Below, piece by piece: positions 8,992 through 55,808 of a stretch of 55,808 nucleotides of DNA (positions are counted from its first letter, which is position 1; the number at the start of each line of letters is the position of its first letter). The notes under the pieces were generated by a model. That model saw only the letters and a list, made by a program, of their open reading frames with translations, was not told where the DNA came from and did no database searches. A program made the position numbers and the translations under genes. Origin of the DNA: an uncultured Oscillibacter sp. (GTDB lineage: Bacteria; Bacillota; Clostridia; Oscillospirales; Oscillospiraceae). The stretch covers positions 12,878 through 68,685 of the forward strand of contig CATNDT010000001.1 of assembly GCA_950097035.1 (NCBI GenBank). The letters are read 5' to 3'.

Positions 8992-10320
8992 ATGGCACGA
9001 ACCAAGAAAGACCAGACCGTTGAGACCCCGACCGATGAGCTGCTTGCCGGCCAGCCTGCAGCTGGGGCAGATCTGCCCCAGACTGAGATGGAATCGGGCG
9101 GAACACCCGGGGACACGGCGCTGCCCGATTTGGAACTGGCCGCCGCCGCATCGCTGGATCCCGACCGTTCCCAGACTGACCTGGAAGCTGATGAAGGTGG
9201 AGAGCCCGACCAGGATGACCTCGTTGAAGGCTCCCAGACCGATCTGAAAGCGGCAGGAAATTCGGAAGACGGCGCAGATCCGCTGAAAGAATCTGTCCAT
9301 CTCCAGACTGACTTTGAATTGCCCTCTGATGGGCGCCCGACCGAGTCGCCGGATGAAGAATTGGACCCCGCGCCCCAGACTGACTCCAAACAGCCCGGGA
9401 AAAAGCTCCGGATGCCTGGCCGGCGCGGTCCGCGTGTGGTATCCATCGACGCTGAGCGCACAGTGGAGACCGATGCGGATAAGCTGCGCAATGATCTGCT
9501 GGATCTGGTGGAGTCGTTAAAGAGTAAGAAAATCCTTACTGGCACCATTCAAGGTGTGGAACGCTTGGCGGATAATCCGGAGATGTCCTATGCCGTCACC
9601 TACCACGGCGACTACAAGATCATCATCCCGGTGCTGGAGGCGGTGGAGGAACCGGAGGACTACCGCGGCCAGCCCAAAGGCGATGTCCTCCACTACCTGC
9701 TCAACAAGCGGCTGGGCGCCGAGGTGGATTACATCGTCAAGGGCATCGACCAAGAGAGCGGTATCGTGGCCGCCAGCCGTCTGGAGGCTATGGCCATGAA
9801 GCGCCGTGAGTATTACTTCCGTACCGACCGGGATGGCAATTACCAGATCTACGAGGGTATCCGGGCCGAGGCCCGGGTGGTATCGGTCATCCGGGCAGGC
9901 ATCTTCGTGGATCTGTTCGGCGCAGAGTGTTATATCCCTCTGCGGGAGTTGTCCTACCAGCGCTGGGTGGACGCCACCACCCACTACCAGCCTGGCCAGC
10001 GTGTGCTGGTGAAGGTGCTGGGCGTAGACCGCACCGACCGGAACAAGCTCCATGTCTCCGCCTCCATCAAGCAGGCGGGGGAAAACCCCTATGAGAAGGC
10101 CCTGAAGAAATACTCGGTGGGCAACCGCTATGTCGGCACCGTCAGCATGGTGGACACCACCGGCGTATTCGTTTCTCTGGACGGCATCGACTGCCTCTGC
10201 ACTTATCCCAAGCGCGGCCGCCCGCCTCGGGGCAGCCGGGTCACTGTGCGGATCCTGGGCATCAACCACGAGAGCAACCGGATCTGGGGTACCATCACCC
10301 ATATTTCTACCGCTTGGTAG
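8992..10320 (+). CDS. S1 RNA-binding-domain protein with QTD-repeat N-terminal region
   Basis: Two S1-like segments (EGIRAEARVVSVIRAGIFVDLFGAECYIPLRELS; VGNRYVGTVSMVDTTGVFVSLDGIDCLCTYPK). ATG 8992 after AAGGAGG. Confidence 0.7.
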   Translation: MARTKKDQTVETPTDELLAGQPAAGADLPQTEMESGGTPGDTALPDLELAAAASLDPDRSQTDLEADEGGEPDQDDLVEGSQTDLKAAGNSEDGADPLKESVHLQTDFELPSDGRPTESPDEELDPAPQTDSKQPGKKLRMPGRRGPRVVSIDAERTVETDADKLRNDLLDLVESLKSKKILTGTIQGVERLADNPEMSYAVTYHGDYKIIIPVLEAVEEPEDYRGQPKGDVLHYLLNKRLGAEVDYIVKGIDQESGIVAASRLEAMAMKRREYYFRTDRDGNYQIYEGIRAEARVVSVIRAGIFVDLFGAECYIPLRELSYQRWVDATTHYQPGQRVLVKVLGVDRTDRNKLHVSASIKQAGENPYEKALKKYSVGNRYVGTVSMVDTTGVFVSLDGIDCLCTYPKRGRPPRGSRVTVRILGINHESNRIWGTITHISTAW

Positions 10321-11094: not shown

Positions 11095-11341
11095 ATAGCA
11101 AGACGCTGTGCTCAGGCTTTCGATATGTCGGGGCGCCTCGGCATCAGACCTGCTGAAAGTACGGCAGGAAATCGTTACGGATCCGCTGCGCGGTCGGTTC
11201 CACAAAGCGCACGTCTTGTGTCTAAAATATGTAGCCGGAAGGCTGCTGAAATACAGTACAGAGTCAATGGCTGGATGCGACCCCACTATTCCAGCACTTG
11301 ATTCTGTATTGTCTTTTTTCGGCAGTCTTCCGGCTTTTTTT
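11095..11341 (+). ncRNA. Candidate structured RNA/leader upstream of the zinc-finger protein
   Basis: Starts just after the promoter; long-range stem CAAGACG 11099-11105 / CGTCTTG 11212-11218; hairpin CCTGC...GCAGG; ends in nested terminator-like stems with two T-tracts. Confidence 0.5.
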
Positions 11342-11361: not shown

Positions 11362-11844
11362 ATGAAATACAAAGCAAATCGAGGCCGGGCCAGCACCATC
11401 CCAAAGCCCGGCCAGCTGAAGTGCCACTGCGGCCGGCCGGCAGTCCTGCGCAGCGCCGAGGGCATCTGCAAGACCCACCGGCCAGGGGCCATGGTCTATG
11501 TCTGCTCCGACTACCCTGCGTGCAACTCGTTTGTCATGGCGCATTCAGACACCTTGGCGCCTATGGGCAGCCTGGCCGGCCCGGAACTGAGGCGGCTGCG
11601 GTATGAGGCGCACCAGGAGTTTGACCGGCTCTACAAGACCGGGCTGATGACCAGAAACGAGGCGTACCGCTGGCTGAGCTATATCGTACAGGCTCCCATG
11701 TCCCATGCCCACATCGGACATCTGGGCGAGTATTACTGCAGAATGGTGATCCGGGAGAGCAGGAAACTGTTGTCCCAGAAGCTGGGGTCTGAAATGGCCT
11801 TGGCAAAAGCAGCAGGAGGTGAATATTATGCTGCCGCTCACTAA
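11362..11844 (+). CDS. Zinc-finger-containing protein (DUF3268-like)
   Basis: CHCGRPAVLRSAEGICKTHRPGAMVYVCSDYPACNSFV; RBS TTGGAGG. Confidence 0.65.
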   Translation: MKYKANRGRASTIPKPGQLKCHCGRPAVLRSAEGICKTHRPGAMVYVCSDYPACNSFVMAHSDTLAPMGSLAGPELRRLRYEAHQEFDRLYKTGLMTRNEAYRWLSYIVQAPMSHAHIGHLGEYYCRMVIRESRKLLSQKLGSEMALAKAAGGEYYAAAH

Positions 11845-12361
11845 AGAGCAGCGGGAAAAGGTCGAGGCAAATATGGGCCTGGTAGGGAAAGTCATCAAGG
11901 ACTGTGTCCATACGCTGGATAAGGGCTGTATCTACGACTATAATGACCTGTTCCAAATCGGGTGCATCGGCCTGTGCAAAGCCGCCCAAACCGACCAGTC
12001 TGGCAAGGGCGCATTCTCCACCTACGCCTATCTCCTGATCCGCAATGAGATCTACACCCAGTTGGAGTACGCCACCCGGCGCGGACGTGAGCAGGCTACG
12101 GACCCGGCGGAGCTGCCCTGCTGTGTGGAAAATCGCGTCCTGGAGCAGACTGAGTCCTGCGCCGCGCTGATGGGCCTGCTGGACCGGGCGGAGGAGGCGG
12201 CGACCGGTGTTACGCTGAAAGGGATCCAGGCCATTCGCCTACTGGCGGATGGGTACAGCAACCGGGAGATCGGCGAGCGGTTCGGTGTGCCGGCCAACCA
12301 TGTGACGGCTTGGGTGGCTAAGGCGAGACGGATGATTGCGCAGCAGGCGGCGTGTTCTTGA
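11828..12361 (+). CDS. Sigma-70-family-like factor of the element
   Basis: DYNDLFQIGCIGLCKAAQTDQSGKGAFSTYAYLLIRNEI region-2-like and C-terminal HTH YSNREIGERFGVPANHVTAWVAKARR; RBS GGAGGTGAAT. Confidence 0.75.
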   Translation: MLPLTKEQREKVEANMGLVGKVIKDCVHTLDKGCIYDYNDLFQIGCIGLCKAAQTDQSGKGAFSTYAYLLIRNEIYTQLEYATRRGREQATDPAELPCCVENRVLEQTESCAALMGLLDRAEEAATGVTLKGIQAIRLLADGYSNREIGERFGVPANHVTAWVAKARRMIAQQAACS

Positions 12362-39837: not shown

Positions 39838-40848
39838 ATGAAACGCACGAGGTTATTCTGCGTCCTGCTTGCGGCGGCGATGCTGCTCAGTCTGGCCGCC
39901 TGCGGCAAGGACGACCCGAAAGAGTCCAATTCGCTCCAGATCGGGGACTATGCGCTGCTCTACAAGGGGGCCAGCATCATGGAGGACTCAGATGGAAACG
40001 ACGCGCTGGTCCTGACGCTGGATTTTACCAACAACAGCAAGGACAGCGGCTCCTATGTATGGTCCATCTCTGAAACAGCGATACAGAACGGCGCAGAATT
40101 GGCTATCGCCACCGTCTTTGCGAACAGCGACTCCTACGACACGGTGATCGACAGTCAATTTACGGATGTCGCGCCGGGTGAAACCCTTGAACTCCGCACC
40201 GCCTTTGTGCTGGCGGATACCACCAGCAAGGTCGAGGTGACCTTTGAGGAGGCGTTCGGCGACAAAACCGGTAAGATCACCGTCGATCCGTCCACACTCA
40301 GCCGGGAAGCGGCGGGAAGCGGTACGGGTCAGGATACTGGAACCGGAGATATACTGCTGGACTGGTGGAACGGCGACTGGTACGGCTGGTGGATCATGAC
40401 CGGCTGCTCGGGCGACTACGAGGATCTGGAGGGCGCCTGGTGGGACATCTGCGGCGCCATTGACATCGGCGGGGACGGCACGGGCACTGTCACCCTCTGG
40501 GATGAGGACTACACGAAGTCGGAACCGATGGTCTCCGCGTCGGTCAGCCTCAGTGATGATGGGACCAGCATATATGGCACCATGACATCCGAGGGCGGCG
40601 CCTTCACGGATATTGCGCTGGAGCACGGGGACTGGATCGTTGACCCGGGACTGGTGGACTATGGGGACATGATCCACATTGACGGTGATTACGAAAACGG
40701 CGGAGATGCGTTCCACTATGATATCTACCTGCGCCCGTGGGGGACCTATTGGGTGGATGTGGACGAGGAGGATCTGCCCAATCTCTATGACAGCTGGTAT
40801 CTGCCTCTGATCGATGCGGAGGAGCCTATGCCGGACAGCATCGGATGA
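39838..40848 (+). CDS. Lipoprotein with DUF5067-like N-terminal region
   Basis: Lipobox LSLAACGK; GDYALLYKGASIMEDSDGNDALVLTLDFTNNSKDSGSY. Confidence 0.6.
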   Translation: MKRTRLFCVLLAAAMLLSLAACGKDDPKESNSLQIGDYALLYKGASIMEDSDGNDALVLTLDFTNNSKDSGSYVWSISETAIQNGAELAIATVFANSDSYDTVIDSQFTDVAPGETLELRTAFVLADTTSKVEVTFEEAFGDKTGKITVDPSTLSREAAGSGTGQDTGTGDILLDWWNGDWYGWWIMTGCSGDYEDLEGAWWDICGAIDIGGDGTGTVTLWDEDYTKSEPMVSASVSLSDDGTSIYGTMTSEGGAFTDIALEHGDWIVDPGLVDYGDMIHIDGDYENGGDAFHYDIYLRPWGTYWVDVDEEDLPNLYDSWYLPLIDAEEPMPDSIG

Positions 40849-49842: not shown

Positions 49843-50892
49843 ATGAAAGAGAAGAACAAAATCACCATTCGTTCCAGCGCAGCGGAATACTTGACCTTTG
49901 TGGCCTCCACTGGCGACAACCAGGAGAGTATCGAGATGCGCTATGAGGATGAAAATATTTGGCTGACTCAGAAAATGATGGCGCAGCTATATGGGATATC
50001 GGTTCCGGCTGTGAATCAGCATATTAAGCGAATCTATGATGACAGCGAGCTTGAGGCCGAGGCAACTATTAAGAATTACTTAATAGTTCAAACTGAGGGT
50101 GGCCGTCAGGTAAGCCGTGATGTGGCGCACTACAATCTCCAGATGATCATTGCCGTGGGGTTCAAGGCCAACAATGATCGGGCCGTCCAGTTCCGCAAGT
50201 GGGCCAACGCTATCGTCAAGGACTACACCATCAAAGGCTGGGTCATGGATGAAGAGCGGCTGAAGAACGGCGGCAGCGTTTTGACGGAGAAGTATTTTGA
50301 AGAGCAGCTGGAGAAGATTAGGGAGATTCGCCTCTCTGAGCGCAGGTTCTATCAAAAAATCACCGATATTTACGCGACGGCGCTGGACTATGATCGGACG
50401 GCCAAAACCACAAAGGAGTTTTTTGCGAAGGTGCAAAATAAAATGCACTTTGCCGTCCATGGCAACACAGCGGCCGAAGTTATCTACCGCCGCGCTGATG
50501 CCGATAAGCCCCATATGGGCCTGACTTCCTGGAAAGCGGCGCCGGATGGAAAGATCATGAAAAGTGATGTCAGTATTGCCAAGAACTATCTGACTGAGAG
50601 CGAGCTGCAGTCCCTGGAGCGGATCGTGTCCGCCTATCTTGATCTGGCGGAAGACCGGGCTCAGCGGCACATCCCTATGACGATGGAGGATTGGGCGAAG
50701 CGGCTGGACATTTTCCTTTCGGCGGATGACCGGGCCATCCTCACGGATGCCGGCAGCATCACGGCCGAAATTGCCAAAGCTCATGCGGAGACAGAGTTTG
50801 AGAAGTACCGGATTGTCCAGGACCGTCTGTATGAGAGCGACTTTGACCGCTTTATGGCCCTGGAGGGCGGGGAAAACAGCCTACAGGGGTAA
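49843..50892 (+). CDS. RhuM-family protein
   Basis: IEMRYEDENIWLTQKMMAQLYGISVPAVNQHIKRIYDDSEL...VQFRKWANAIVKDYTIKGWVMDEERLKN. Confidence 0.9.
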   Translation: MKEKNKITIRSSAAEYLTFVASTGDNQESIEMRYEDENIWLTQKMMAQLYGISVPAVNQHIKRIYDDSELEAEATIKNYLIVQTEGGRQVSRDVAHYNLQMIIAVGFKANNDRAVQFRKWANAIVKDYTIKGWVMDEERLKNGGSVLTEKYFEEQLEKIREIRLSERRFYQKITDIYATALDYDRTAKTTKEFFAKVQNKMHFAVHGNTAAEVIYRRADADKPHMGLTSWKAAPDGKIMKSDVSIAKNYLTESELQSLERIVSAYLDLAEDRAQRHIPMTMEDWAKRLDIFLSADDRAILTDAGSITAEIAKAHAETEFEKYRIVQDRLYESDFDRFMALEGGENSLQG

Positions 50893-50960: not shown

Positions 50961-51062
50961 GGATATAGAACGGTTCAGAACAGATACATACATTTGCGGG
51001 CAGGGCGAAGCACCGGCCAGATTCCTCTTGAAATTTTGGCCAGAAACGAATATAATAGTTAC

Positions 51063-51147
51063 ATACAGTATCCGAGATTGCCAATGCAGTCCAAGTATCC
51101 GTGTCACACAGCGTCCAGAGGCCCATTGTGCCTTTGGGCGCTTTTTT
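51063..51147 (+). ncRNA. Candidate small RNA copy A (~85 nt)
   Basis: Promoter TTGAAA 51028-N17-TATAAT 51051; intrinsic terminator AGCGTCCAGAGGC...GCCTTTGGGCGCTTTTTT; homologous to copy B. Confidence 0.65.
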
Positions 51148-51296
51148 CATTTATGGCCGTCTGGTCACAAACGCATGAGCATGATCGCCCATGCGTTTTT
51201 ATATAGATTGGAGCCGAAAGGTTCCCCCAACCTTTTTTATCGGGGAGCCTGCTGGCTCACCGTTATATATAAATCAACACATGAGGAGGAGTGATA

Positions 51297-51563
51297 ATGA
51301 CCGATTTACTTAAACAAGGGGATGTGTGTATCTATTCTTTTGGCAGCAAAAACAAATCCATTGCAATTGTTGAGATCGTAAGGGTGCTGGATGACGTGCG
51401 GGGCGTGGCAGAGATCAAGTTCCTTGACGTGATCATTGATGATACTGGGAACGGTATGTTCAAGTATTTGCATAGGACAGGCAAGACGATGAATGCCAGC
51501 CTCAAGTATCTTCGGAAGAGCGAGAATGAGGATGGCAAAAGCGTGTCAAGGATCGATGCTTGA
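51297..51563 (+). CDS. Small hypothetical protein
   Basis: ATG 51297 after GAGGAGGAGTG. Confidence 0.55.
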   Translation: MTDLLKQGDVCIYSFGSKNKSIAIVEIVRVLDDVRGVAEIKFLDVIIDDTGNGMFKYLHRTGKTMNASLKYLRKSENEDGKSVSRIDA

Positions 51564-51763
51564 GCGCCCCGGTGATTTTCTTTTTGGAGGTGACCGGCAC
51601 GAAAGCAATTCGGATTCAATGGGATGTCGATTGCGACGGCGACGTAGCGTTGCTGCCGGCAGAAATTGAGATTCCAGACGGAATGGAAGATGAAGATGAA
51701 ATCTCAGATTATCTTTCAGATACAACTGGATTTTGTCACAAGGGATATGTCTTGACTGGCTGA
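51560..51763 (+). CDS. Small acidic hypothetical protein
   Basis: Coupled ORF; start may be the GTG near 51587. Confidence 0.4.
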   Translation: MSAPVIFFLEVTGTKAIRIQWDVDCDGDVALLPAEIEIPDGMEDEDEISDYLSDTTGFCHKGYVLTG

Positions 51764-51840
51764 TGCAAGAGCTGCCAGCTTCTCGCCCCAAAGCCAGGGA
51801 TAAGTCTGCCCCAGATCTAAACAGTTGAAAGGAACAGAAA

Positions 51841-52029
51841 ATGAAAAAAGGAGACTATATTGATACACCGCGGTTTTGCAAGGTGAAAATCGAGAAAGTG
51901 TTCGGGTGTGAGGCAACGGCCCGCAAGTTTGGGTTTAGGGAACCAACGCACTACAAGGATGGTGAGTACGGTATCCTCGGAAAGCATACCAGCCCCAACC
52001 AAATGATTTTCGCAGCATATAAACGATAA
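51841..52029 (+). CDS. Small hypothetical protein (62 aa)
   Basis: ATG 51841 with GAAAGGAAC; followed by terminator hairpin. Confidence 0.5.
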   Translation: MKKGDYIDTPRFCKVKIEKVFGCEATARKFGFREPTHYKDGEYGILGKHTSPNQMIFAAYKR

Positions 52030-52049
52030 CAATTTCCGGCCTCAAAGGA

Positions 52050-52091
52050 AGCGCACAAGCAGTAACATCAACTGCCTGTGCGCTTTTTCCA
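52050..52091 (+). terminator. Intrinsic terminator
   Basis: AGCGCACAAGCAGT-AACATCA-ACTGCCTGTGCGCTTTTT. Confidence 0.75.
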
Positions 52092-52145
52092 TATCAAGCC
52101 CCACCTGCAAGGACGCAGGAAAATATATTAAGGAGTGTTGGATCT

Positions 52146-52562
52146 ATGCAAAAGAACGACTACGACTATCTGAAACCCTTTTTTCCCGACATGGAGCAGG
52201 AGAAAGTATTTTGGAGCTTTATCTGCTTCTCGCGGCAGGACTATGCCAGCAAAGTACCGCTGGGGTGCGAAGACGAGATCATGCTTGCGCTCCAGTGTGC
52301 AGACGGCGGCTGCGTTACCGAGATGGCCATTCGCTGGCACAACTTGGGTAAAACGGTCTCCCCGCGGCTGGAGTGCTTTGATGAGGCGTGGCCAATGCTG
52401 CTTGCGCCAAGCTGTGCAAAGGTCATGCAGATGCTGGCTGCGCGGCATGATCAGGACCTGTCTCCCGATGATGTGACACAGATTTTGCTGGAGTCCGGGT
52501 TCAAGGACCTGTCCGACCACCCGTGGAAGGGGGATGGGAAAGGCGGTGAAGGATGTGATTAA
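52146..52562 (+). CDS. Hypothetical conjugative-element protein
   Basis: 138-aa ORF; AAGGAGTG upstream. Confidence 0.55.
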   Translation: MQKNDYDYLKPFFPDMEQEKVFWSFICFSRQDYASKVPLGCEDEIMLALQCADGGCVTEMAIRWHNLGKTVSPRLECFDEAWPMLLAPSCAKVMQMLAARHDQDLSPDDVTQILLESGFKDLSDHPWKGDGKGGEGCD

Positions 52563-52728
52563 GCCAAGGCCGCGACGCTGCAGGATCTTCAACTGCGACC
52601 GGCGGCACGGCAACTTCTGCTGTGCAGACTGCGGCTATAAGAAAAGCGGCGGCTGTAAAAACCCCTGTTTGAATGGCCCTGCACGGTGCGGCCAGGTGGC
52701 GCGAGACAAGGGGGTGGCGGGAACATGA
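52534..52728 (+). CDS. Small Cys-rich protein
   Basis: CRIFNCDRRHGNFCCADCGYKKSGGCKNPCLNGPARCGQ. Confidence 0.5.
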   Translation: MGKAVKDVIKPRPRRCRIFNCDRRHGNFCCADCGYKKSGGCKNPCLNGPARCGQVARDKGVAGT

Positions 52729-53171
52729 TCCCAAAGATCACGCAGCAAGGCCCCAACATTATGGAACGGTTCTGGTGCGGGAAATGCGGCGCCGGCCTGC
52801 CAAACCCCCATCGAGCCGGCGGCAAGGAACCTGCACCCGCTTGGCGTTTCTGTCCCATCTGCGGCGAGCCTATTGAGTATGACAAGGCCGAGCCAGTCCA
52901 ATGGGCGGAGCAAAGCTGTGAACGGTGCGGCTGCAAGCTGATCATGGAGATCCAGCACACACCTCGGAGCTACTTCATAGCTACCAGTGACTATGTGGGC
53001 GGGCCCATCTGCCGCAGCTGCTTGGAGGAACATTGTGCGCAGACCAACTGCCTGCAGTGCGAAATCGGTACATGGCCGGGCTGCCCCTATGAGTGGGGCA
53101 AGAAGTTCGCCTTGGATACTGACGACATCAATGCAGGCAATACGAAAGAAACGGGAGGTACAGCTAAATGA
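52725..53171 (+). CDS. Zinc-ribbon hypothetical protein
   Basis: CGKCGAGLP...FCPICGEPI, CERCGCKL...ICRSCLEEHCAQTNCLQC; ATGA overlap with previous gene. Confidence 0.55.
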   Translation: MIPKITQQGPNIMERFWCGKCGAGLPNPHRAGGKEPAPAWRFCPICGEPIEYDKAEPVQWAEQSCERCGCKLIMEIQHTPRSYFIATSDYVGGPICRSCLEEHCAQTNCLQCEIGTWPGCPYEWGKKFALDTDDINAGNTKETGGTAK

Positions 53172-53324
53172 GTGAGCAAAACAAAGTCCATAGTGGCCGT
53201 TTTTGTGGGTTCTGGCCCGGAACGTGAAGTCCTGAGCGCCAACTGGGACAATGATGCAGAGATCCTGCGCATCATCCATGAGCTGAACTTCGGGAAATTC
53301 CGAATGCCGCCGCAAAGGGGGTGA
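53172..53324 (+). CDS. Small 50-aa protein, GTG start (not in ORF track)
   Basis: GTG 53172 after GGGAGG; (M)SKTKSIVAVFVGSGPEREVLSANWDNDAEILRIIHELNFGKFRMPPQRG. Confidence 0.45.
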   Translation: MSKTKSIVAVFVGSGPEREVLSANWDNDAEILRIIHELNFGKFRMPPQRG

Positions 53325-53330
53325 TTGAGC

Positions 53331-53894
53331 ATGGATTTTTGGCCTATACTGGAAATGCGCTTGGATTATTGGTCAGTCTTAGACCGGCTTTCTGAAATCG
53401 AGTCATATCCGTGGGACGGTGTGAAAAACGAGTATTATGACGACTATGCTGACCTATTCAATGAAATGGCAGGCCTGTCTGCCGAATTCTACAATGAGTT
53501 TGAGCGGCTGATTCGTGATCTGGAGTACACTTGGAGCCTACCGAAGCGAAAGTTGGAGAACACTGGCATGGAAAATGCACGCGGCGCGGCATGGTTTGAC
53601 ATGGCGGTCTCACTGCTGAATGAAACGGACATGAGTGTTTTATTGGAAAACGAGGGCGTCTATGATCCTGACGATATTGATCGGGAAAGGCAAAAGCGGC
53701 GTAAAGCTGTTCTGGCGCTGACCAAGGAGCAGCAGTTCTCACTCTTTACGCAGGTGTTCCATTTTCTGATGCGGTTCATCCAGCTTTCTCTGGCATTTGA
53801 AACGGTCAAGGGCTCCATTGACGAGCTGGAGCGGCTGAACTCCCTTCGGGAAACGAATGGGCGGTTACAACTGCCGTCCTCTGCCTACTTGTAG
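53331..53894 (+). CDS. Hypothetical protein
   Basis: 187-aa ORF, mostly helical; follows AAAGGGGGTGATT. Confidence 0.5.
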   Translation: MDFWPILEMRLDYWSVLDRLSEIESYPWDGVKNEYYDDYADLFNEMAGLSAEFYNEFERLIRDLEYTWSLPKRKLENTGMENARGAAWFDMAVSLLNETDMSVLLENEGVYDPDDIDRERQKRRKAVLALTKEQQFSLFTQVFHFLMRFIQLSLAFETVKGSIDELERLNSLRETNGRLQLPSSAYL

Positions 53895-53966
53895 AAAGAA
53901 ACAGGATGGGATCACATTTCTCAAAACACCCTTGCAAATGCCGACGGGAGCAGGTATAATACTGCT

Positions 53967-54050
53967 ATAAAGTATCAGTAGATTACATCTGTAGTCAAAG
54001 TAACCGTGTATCAAAGCGTCTGAAGGCCTATGGCCTTTAGGCGCTTTTTT
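53967..54050 (+). ncRNA. Candidate small RNA copy B (~84 nt)
   Basis: Promoter TTGCAA 53932-N17-TATAAT 53955; terminator AGCGTCTGAAGGCC...GGCCTTTAGGCGCTTTTTT; homologous to copy A. Confidence 0.65.
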
Positions 54051-54131
54051 ATTATATATGGCCCTTCGGGGCAAAGTTTGGGACGCTGGAAGGCGTCCCT
54101 TTTTTATTTCACGAACGAGGAGGTGAACAAC

Positions 54132-54452
54132 ATGGACATTCCACAGCATCTGGAATGTGATACACCAGACTGCATTTACTGGAAAGATGGCGCCTGTGTC
54201 AAAGGGACATCCGTCACGATCCAGGAACACCGCTGTGTGGACTATGAAGAACGTATTGTACTTTCACCGGCGACCGTGACCATCGAATGCAGCGGCGGCG
54301 TGGTTCAGAACGTATATGCCAGCCCGGACCTGCCGCCCATCAGCGTCGACCTGATCGACTTTGACAACCTGCGGGATGCGCCGGAGGAAGAACTGCTCCA
54401 CAGCCAACAGCAGTTGAAAGCGGTAGCCGAGGCCCACACACACATTTTCTGA
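54132..54452 (+). CDS. Hypothetical conjugative-element protein
   Basis: ATG 54132 after GAGGAGGTGAAC; CDTPDCIYWKDGACVKGTSVTIQEHRCVDY. Confidence 0.55.
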   Translation: MDIPQHLECDTPDCIYWKDGACVKGTSVTIQEHRCVDYEERIVLSPATVTIECSGGVVQNVYASPDLPPISVDLIDFDNLRDAPEEELLHSQQQLKAVAEAHTHIF

Positions 54453-54466
54453 AGGAGGAGCACAAT

Positions 54467-55808
54467 ATGACCGAACAAATGAAAACCCTGATCGCCCGGC
54501 TGCTGGAGGCGGATGAAGCCTATTATGGCAGGGATGATCCCATTATGAGCGACTATGAGTATGACCGGCTCTACGACGAACTGATCCGGTTGGAGAAAGA
54601 GAGCGGCATCGTTCTCGCAACCTCGCCCACTCAGCGGGTGCCTGGCGAGGTGCTGGATAGCCTGGCCACGGTGACGCACACCAAGCCCATGCTTTCAGCC
54701 GGCAAAACCAAAGCCATCAATGAGGTCTTCAAGTTCATCGGTGGACGGAAAGTCATCCTCAGCTGGAAGCTGGATGGGCTTACCCTGGTGCTGCGCTATA
54801 AGGAAGGCAAGCTGGTGCAGGCCATCACCCGCGGTGACGGTCTGAAGGGCGAAGATGTTACCCATACCGTGCGGGTCATGGGGAATGTGCCTCTGACGAT
54901 CCCTTGCACTGACCCCTTGGAGGTGCGCGGTGAGGGCGTTGTCAGCTGGCAGAATTTCCGGGCACTCAATGAAACGTTGGAGGATCCCTACTCCCACCCC
55001 AGGAACCTGGCGGCGGGCAGCATCCGGAAGCTGGATGCCAACGAGAGCCGCAAGCGCCGGTTGGAGTTTCTGGCCTTCGACCTCATCAGCGATACGCTGG
55101 GGGGCGCCACCAAATGGGAGCAGCTGCGCTTCATGGCCCAGATGGGCTTTACCACTGTTGGCTATTCCATTCTGGCTGCCAATGCGCCGCTGGAGGCTTT
55201 GGAACAGGCTGTAGCCTGGTATCGCCCAGAGGAATATGCCTATCCTGTGGACGGCTTGATCTTCGAGTATGACGATCTGGATTATGGCCGTTCTTTGGGC
55301 GCTACCGGCCACCATGAAAACCGGCTCATGGCCCTCAAGTGGAAGGATACGCTCTATGAAACGGTGTTCCGCTCTCTGGAGGTAGCCACCACCAGGACTG
55401 GTATGGTCAGCCTTACCGGGGTGTTTGACGACGTAGAGATTGACGGCACTACCGTGAACCACGCCTATCTGCACAATCTTGATATTTTCAAGGCGTTGGC
55501 GCTGGGGCCGGGAGATAAAATCTCCGTTTACAAGGCCAACATGATCATCCCCCAGATCGCGGAGAACCACACCAAGAGCGGCGGCTGTCCCATCCCCTTT
55601 GTCTGCCCCTGTTGCGGGGAGTCATTGATGATCCACAAGAGTACCGGCGGCACAAGACAGCTTTATTGCGAGAACCCCGCCTGCCCGGCCAAGCTGGTAC
55701 GCAAATTTGTCCACTTCTGCAGCAAGACCCGGATGGAGATCGAGGGACTAGCAGAGCAGACGCTGGAGACCTTTGTGGACCGCGGCTGGGTCAAGAATTT
55801 CGGGGACC
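54467..55808 (+). CDS. ligA: NAD-dependent DNA ligase, truncated by window end
   Basis: Read directly: ATG 54467 after GAAGGAGG; YYGRDDPIMSDYEYDRLYDELIRLE, TSPTQRVPGEV, SWKLDGLTLVLRY adenylation motif, CPCCGESLMIHKSTGGTRQLYCENPACPAK zinc finger. Open to the window end, so absent from ORF track. Confidence 0.9.
   Translation, partial: MTEQMKTLIARLLEADEAYYGRDDPIMSDYEYDRLYDELIRLEKESGIVLATSPTQRVPGEVLDSLATVTHTKPMLSAGKTKAINEVFKFIGGRKVILSWKLDGLTLVLRYKEGKLVQAITRGDGLKGEDVTHTVRVMGNVPLTIPCTDPLEVRGEGVVSWQNFRALNETLEDPYSHPRNLAAGSIRKLDANESRKRRLEFLAFDLISDTLGGATKWEQLRFMAQMGFTTVGYSILAANAPLEALEQAVAWYRPEEYAYPVDGLIFEYDDLDYGRSLGATGHHENRLMALKWKDTLYETVFRSLEVATTRTGMVSLTGVFDDVEIDGTTVNHAYLHNLDIFKALALGPGDKISVYKANMIIPQIAENHTKSGGCPIPFVCPCCGESLMIHKSTGGTRQLYCENPACPAKLVRKFVHFCSKTRMEIEGLAEQTLETFVDRGWVKNFGD

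Follow-up and report, generated by a model that had tools for sequence, protein, structure and literature searches.

Why would a promoter fire into one to three transcription terminators before it reaches its gene? The question arises twice in the DNA analyzed here, a stretch of 55,808 nucleotides from an uncultured Oscillibacter sp. (assembly GCA_950097035.1, contig CATNDT010000001.1, positions 12,878 to 68,685; hereafter the window) that carries genes of an integrative and conjugative element (ICE). A first-pass annotation had described the two sites as paralogous small RNA genes of ~85 nt. A promoter that fires into terminators is sensible if termination is regulated, and we consider it likely that both RNAs are cis-acting 5' attenuator leaders of ICE operons, relieved by antitermination that is most likely processive and dependent on an element-encoded factor.

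Both units are on the forward strand. Copy A starts from the promoter TTGAAA-17-TATAAT (51028-51056, 11 of 12 consensus matches) and copy B from TTGCAA-17-TATAAT (53932-53960, 10 of 12); in a consensus scan these were the top two promoter-like sites between 50500 and 55000. The leader RNAs, taken through the end of the first terminator (T1), span 51063-51147 and 53967-54051, and the folding energy of each beats 200 of 200 shuffles (z = -4.5 for A and -5.6 for B). Copy A carries a short conserved motif (box 1, AGTATC, 51067-51072), a hairpin (helix 1, GATTGC-CAAT-GCAGTC, 51076-51091) and a second, repetitive motif (box 2, AGTATC-CG-TGTCAC-AC-AGCGTC, 51094-51115). The final unit of box 2 is the 5' foot of T1, which is followed by a T run (~51110-51148). 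Copy B has the same arrangement, with box 1 AGTATC at 53971-53976, helix 1 GATTAC-ATCT-GTAGTC at 53981-53996, box 2 AGTAAC-CG-TGTATC-AA-AGCGTC at 53999-54020, its final unit again forming the foot of T1, and T1 with its T run at ~54013-54050. The promoter spacing, the RNA length and T1 are thus as first described, as is the compensatory change from C-G to U-A in the T1 stem between the two copies.

Further terminators and then a small gene follow each copy, which also agrees with the earlier description. Behind copy A are a second terminator (T2, 51170-51199), a weaker third hairpin with a T run (51217-51240) and a gene for an 88-amino-acid protein of no family (51297-51563, +). Behind copy B, T2 (54080-54105) is followed by a gene for a 106-amino-acid protein, also of no family (54132-54452, +), and then by the NAD-dependent DNA ligase gene ligA (54467-55807, +). 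Only ~30 nt lie between the end of this T2 and the start codon at 54132, so the copy B promoter could drive that gene and ligA only via T1 and T2.

Allowing up to 3 mismatches, a search of the window's assembly located the core common to copies A and B, GTCnAAGTAnCCGTGTnnnnnAGCGTC, at exactly two places and gave 0 control matches. A pattern with 16 specified bases, run on genome contigs, gave mainly chance matches, and the only real ones were the first relatives, two copies in the cultured Flintibacter muris DSM 110149 (L119) and others in Bacterium 1xD42-67 (L103) and an Oscillospiraceae genome (L044). Aligning the relatives revealed conservation of the promoter, T1, an intervening GCCC..GGGC hairpin and T2, up to the ribosome-binding site. 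Conservation extends outside the terminators, and the conserved unit is this whole block rather than the 85 nt originally proposed.

Since a family-wide sequence pattern was too strict, covariance models were needed, and we built R1 from 6 sequences and then R2 from 15 and ran them on family, order, class and phylum samples. This expansion, which the first-pass annotation had suggested, yielded a family of 41 copies from Oscillospirales-level and other Clostridia genomes, which we call class I leaders. The sample covers a fraction of existing genomes, some of them fragmented, and copies of one element are not independent. Copies A (82.2 bits, E=2.3e-19) and B (88.2 bits, E=4.7e-21) are among the R2 seed sequences, and model-building sequences match by construction; the remaining copies do not. 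Thirty-seven copies have E<=1e-7 over the collected loci and the other four come from additional loci; for two of these four, at locus L255 (32 and 29 bits), the presence of a promoter and of the boxes decided in favour of inclusion. Two R1 matches (L173 and L174) were rejected as ordinary terminators without boxes or promoter.

The two copies in the window are indeed paralogous, but they are not the only ones, as a more diverged third copy precedes an ssb-like gene in the same assembly (G000:C169, locus L162). The maximum for a single strand of an element is five copies, within 29 kb of one contig of genome G578, which has two more on a second contig. Four copies were found in G474 and three in G764. 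No convincing copy was detected in the phylum sample of 150 genomes except in the window's own genome. The plasmid and phage collections contained no DNA relatives, and patterns run on viral contigs gave chance matches or none, apart from one leader of a second class (L284, described below). A single leader was reached via its ssb gene in MT837680.1 (L239). Although deposited as 'Bacteriophage sp.', this sequence combines its leader, which is of class I, with an ICE ssb gene and is probably a piece of an ICE and not a phage.

The structure is supported by comparison of 37 aligned copies. In these, 91.2% of cells were paired versus 35.5-47.5% for slid structures, two-sided changes occurred in 16 of 20 pairs (6/6 in helix 1 and 10/14 in T1), and the covariation score was 0.574 versus 0.217 in shuffled alignments (0/500 shuffles reached 0.574), all figures that lean towards the model's structure because the alignment was fitted to it. 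The occurrence of GC, AU, CG and UA pair types at identical positions is directly visible in the sequences. From this comparison we judge that helix 1 and T1 are a genuine RNA structure.

The conserved sequence lies in the single-stranded boxes, between which helix 1 is located and varies in sequence. Box 1 begins with AGTATC or AGTTTC in 37/41 copies (RNA AGUWUC). Promoters were detected for 39/41 copies, mostly with 17-nt spacing, and 29/41 have an extended -10. The distance from the -10 to box 1 is nearly fixed (8-10 nt in 39/41, counted by script), and box 1, being so close behind the -10, is therefore at the extreme 5' end of the transcript. Box 2 follows the scheme AGUNNC-NN-(N)GUNNC-NN-AGYGUC (DNA consensus AGTATCCGAGTTACAAAGTGTC). 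Its final unit is the first six bases of the T1 5' arm (AGTGTC, AGCGTC or AGTGCC in 38/41), and the upper stem of T1 varies freely. T1 is strong in every copy, with minimum free energies of -16.6 to -30.8 kcal/mol. By hand count, the units within box 2 are of equal length in 30/41 copies, a weak and phylogenetically non-independent observation to which we give no weight.

Where do these leaders lie? In 39 copies, the first open reading frame with a ribosome site was found ~63-421 nt after T1 in the leader's direction (none was called for L172 and L169). At least one further terminator is present in 28/41 of the gaps between leader and gene, versus a mean of 2.1 in dinucleotide shuffles, and a lax criterion picked up no promoter-like site in 37/41 gaps, both calls resting on consensus scans. 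The downstream genes include ssb-like genes, ligA (before other ligA genes of the ICE family as well as that of the window), PcfK/PcfJ, a DNY-motif protein followed by YqaJ and RecD2, LPD11 and small orphans. The five copies within 29 kb of one element precede its LPD11, PcfK/PcfJ, ligA, SSB/AAA and YqaJ/RecD2 operons. All these operons belong to one ICE family, with a backbone of DUF5697, DUF6100, VirD4/TraG, an S1-repeat protein, DUF3268 and a sigma-like protein. The leaders accordingly have the parts of an intrinsic-terminator attenuator, namely a promoter, a leader RNA, a terminator and a same-strand gene, with no promoter-like site in those 37 gaps. We read them as cis-acting because of this position at operon heads, the extra terminators, the gaps without promoter-like sites and the short distance between T2 of copy B and its gene.

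An ICE of Vescimonas fastidiosa (NZ_AP023417.1) provides a comparison. It has a similar backbone (DUF5697, DUF6100, VirD4, S1 with 34% identity, SSB, ligA, PcfJ, RecD and an exonuclease), and the class I leader was not found in it. It has two copies of a second leader, class II, before its ssb and exonuclease/RecD operons, and a third copy is in a contig of the viral collection. The class II plan is a promoter, TGTAATTGTTnTTTGTGCAnCGCCTAT, a stem closed by UGUGC/GCACA, a second box (CACACGTT.GTTAAGnTTGTAnTTT) and a terminator (L282:4288-4459, +; L283:35704-35870, -; L284:1185-1350, +, the viral-collection copy). The class II pattern did not occur in 251 family genomes. The same plan at the same operons with a different sequence is as expected from co-divergence with an element-encoded factor, an argument based on three sequences.

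The anatomy leads us to the following model, in which termination in vivo, antitermination, its processivity, a trans factor and the coupling to ICE activation are inferred. A strong sigma-A-type promoter would start a transcript consisting of box 1, the hairpin, box 2 and T1. In the default state, RNA polymerase would halt at T1 (or T2), leaving an ~85-nt RNA. Upon ICE activation, a factor, most likely encoded by the element, would recognize the repeated boxes on the nascent RNA and, bound where they overlap the foot of T1, block this terminator. Where T2 or a third terminator (T3) follows, the factor would remain with the polymerase, and these would be read through too. Placing one leader on several operons could then switch DNA-processing and accessory genes jointly. 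For the 28 leaders with further terminators, the anatomy suggests processive antitermination.

Several points weigh against this model. T1 stands alone in 13/41 leaders, and local, non-processive relief of T1 would therefore suffice there. Transcription entering from upstream, or promoters outside the scan consensus, could likewise supply the genes. The downstream reading frames come from a search confined to the direction of the leader, so the shared orientation of leader and gene is no independent evidence. Analyses of NusG paralogues and of S1 association, described below, identified no trans factor.

The main alternative raised by the first-pass annotation is that the ~85-nt RNA is itself the product, a stand-alone trans-acting small RNA whose boxes pair with mRNAs of the element or host, with T2 merely insulating the unit. 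The discrete promoter-RNA-terminator arrangement and the conserved single-stranded boxes would suit such an RNA, and T2 would block read-through. We nevertheless consider this improbable, as the copies head operons and 37/41 gaps lack a promoter-like site, as many as five near-redundant copies occur per element, and a related ICE places a sequence-unrelated RNA of the same plan at the same operon heads. Neither box 2 nor its complement recurs beyond the leaders in 573 kb of element loci (weight matrix, both strands) except for 4 near-threshold, chance-type matches, in a scan that addressed box sites in element loci rather than host targets or non-box pairing. The earlier interpretation is therefore partly supported as a whole, with the anatomy retained and the stand-alone role replaced by that of an operon-head leader. 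A closer relative of our model needs no factor encoded by the ICE: the leader would be an antiterminator RNA of the put, EAR or canT type and would modify the polymerase on its own. canT of Tn916 is thought to act as a cis RNA without other genes of the element (PMC11658703), and our analysis found no factor. This variant is unlikely. T1 directly adjoins box 2 and has the last box unit in common with it, an arrangement more suggestive of a switch than of a constitutive bypass; related ICEs differ in leader sequence class; and conservation lies in repeated single-stranded boxes while the sequence of helix 1 varies.

Conserved nucleotides around a hairpin beside a terminator are also what a riboswitch-like leader would display, sensing a ligand or host signal, or acting as an RNA-only attenuator, without a protein of the element. 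We regard this as very improbable. As long as the 3' arm has yet to be made, the T1 foot has a mean paired probability of 0.32 and shows no conserved alternative partner, which is evidence against RNA-only attenuation, and boxes that repeat one unit fit repeated protein binding better than a ligand pocket. Finally, a repressor or activator could bind the conserved blocks as DNA operators immediately behind the promoter, and the RNA would then be without function. The nearly fixed distance between box 1 and the -10 and the near-palindromic form of some box 2 copies (GTAACCGAGTTAC) would agree with operators, but helix 1 covaries as RNA at all six pairs, the spacing between the boxes ranges from 17 to 43 nt without helical phasing, and box 2 extends into the T1 stem, making operators extremely unlikely.

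If the leaders are relieved by a protein of the element, as our antitermination model supposes, the S1-repeat (ribosomal protein S1-like) protein of the ICE (8992-10320, +) is a weak candidate, by association. Close homologues were found in 11/15 leader-positive versus 0/20 leader-negative genomes, four of the latter having distant S1 relatives only (29-34%). Both copies of the S1-repeat gene in G578 lie on the same two contigs as its leaders. However, the whole ICE backbone shows an equal association with the leaders, and the protein is therefore only a lead. It is 58-83% identical between elements and has many distant relatives on Bacillota plasmids. LoaP/NusG was considered as the factor and rejected: 12/15 leader-bearing genomes have one NusG-family protein, and the second copies in G721 (C3), G685 (C58) and G983 (C205) lie on contigs other than those with leaders. 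In its most specific form, the proposal would be a regulon-wide bipartite system in which one element-encoded RNA-binding factor, perhaps the S1-repeat protein from the transfer region, reads the tandem AGUNNC boxes and opens several operons jointly, with lineages differing in leader sequence and keeping an identical plan at the same operons. We advance this form tentatively, as a possibility somewhat short of even.

To our knowledge, very few model systems of antitermination exist for conjugative elements (pLS20 and Tn916), each with one antiterminator at one operon; both serve here as precedents. An antitermination leader of a conjugative element is thus a device of known kind; what appears new is the RNA family, the repeated use of it at several operons within an element, and the two alternative classes. 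In the conAn system of pLS20-family conjugative plasmids, the ConAn1 protein and the conAn2 RNA form a bipartite antitermination system (PMC8955417). As in conAn, the RNA lies at the start of a conjugation-related transcript of a conjugative element of Bacillota, with many internal terminators that need bypass. conAn is described at the single conjugation operon, whereas the leader here is copied before several operons. R2 gave no credible match on pLS20 positions 1-45000 (of 65.8 kb; best 17.2 bits, E=0.083, at 39965), and homology below its sensitivity is possible.

Like the class I leader, canT of the ICE Tn916 is an ICE-borne RNA before terminators. It is a cis-acting antiterminator allowing read-through of T1, T2 and T3, and the work on it used a fragment of 452 bp that lies between the main promoter and T1 (PMC11658703). 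It differs in being far larger and present once per element, a distinction drawn from its description and not from sequence. The leaders of LoaP, a NusG paralogue, share with our proposed mechanism a specialized, leader-dependent processive antitermination in Bacillota; unlike in LoaP systems, no NusG paralogue is linked to the class I leader contigs. The same ICE also carries the Rfam DUF3268 RNA (RF02966, 77.8 bits) at 11097-11214 of the window, upstream of the DUF3268 zinc-finger backbone gene. This is a different family, which class I copies do not match. Rfam 15 (4227 models) gave no match over the leaders at the gathering threshold, in line with the first-pass view that the RNA belongs to no class that could be named, and the sub-threshold matches were chance-level microRNAs and small RNAs (E 0.06-3). 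A search of the literature available to us found no paper describing this RNA family.

In an ICE family spread over gut Clostridia, a compact, repeated leader would mark where many operons are switched, so that a regulon could be defined from sequence alone. How ICE genes are kept silent yet activated jointly becomes a directly testable question. The family can be annotated, is absent from Rfam, and comes with a second class of the same plan for comparison.

Some further features were observed near the leaders. A RhuM-family (PF13310) gene lies at 49843-50892 of the window, between the integrase and leader A. Downstream of T2, positions 51200-51260 of the window and loci L228, L232 and L236 have in common TATATAGATYGGAGYC..GGCTCCCC..CGGGGAGCC, which possibly forms two mutually exclusive hairpins and might add a control step. 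At L172:4472-4536 (-), an Rfam pemK RNA (RF02913) is located ~0.9 kb downstream of a class I leader. Small ICE proteins with similarity to sigma-70 region 2 are encoded at L225:10300-10854 and at 11828-12361 of the window; such proteins lie within or near leader-controlled operons, and one of them is fused to a Cro-type helix-turn-helix domain.

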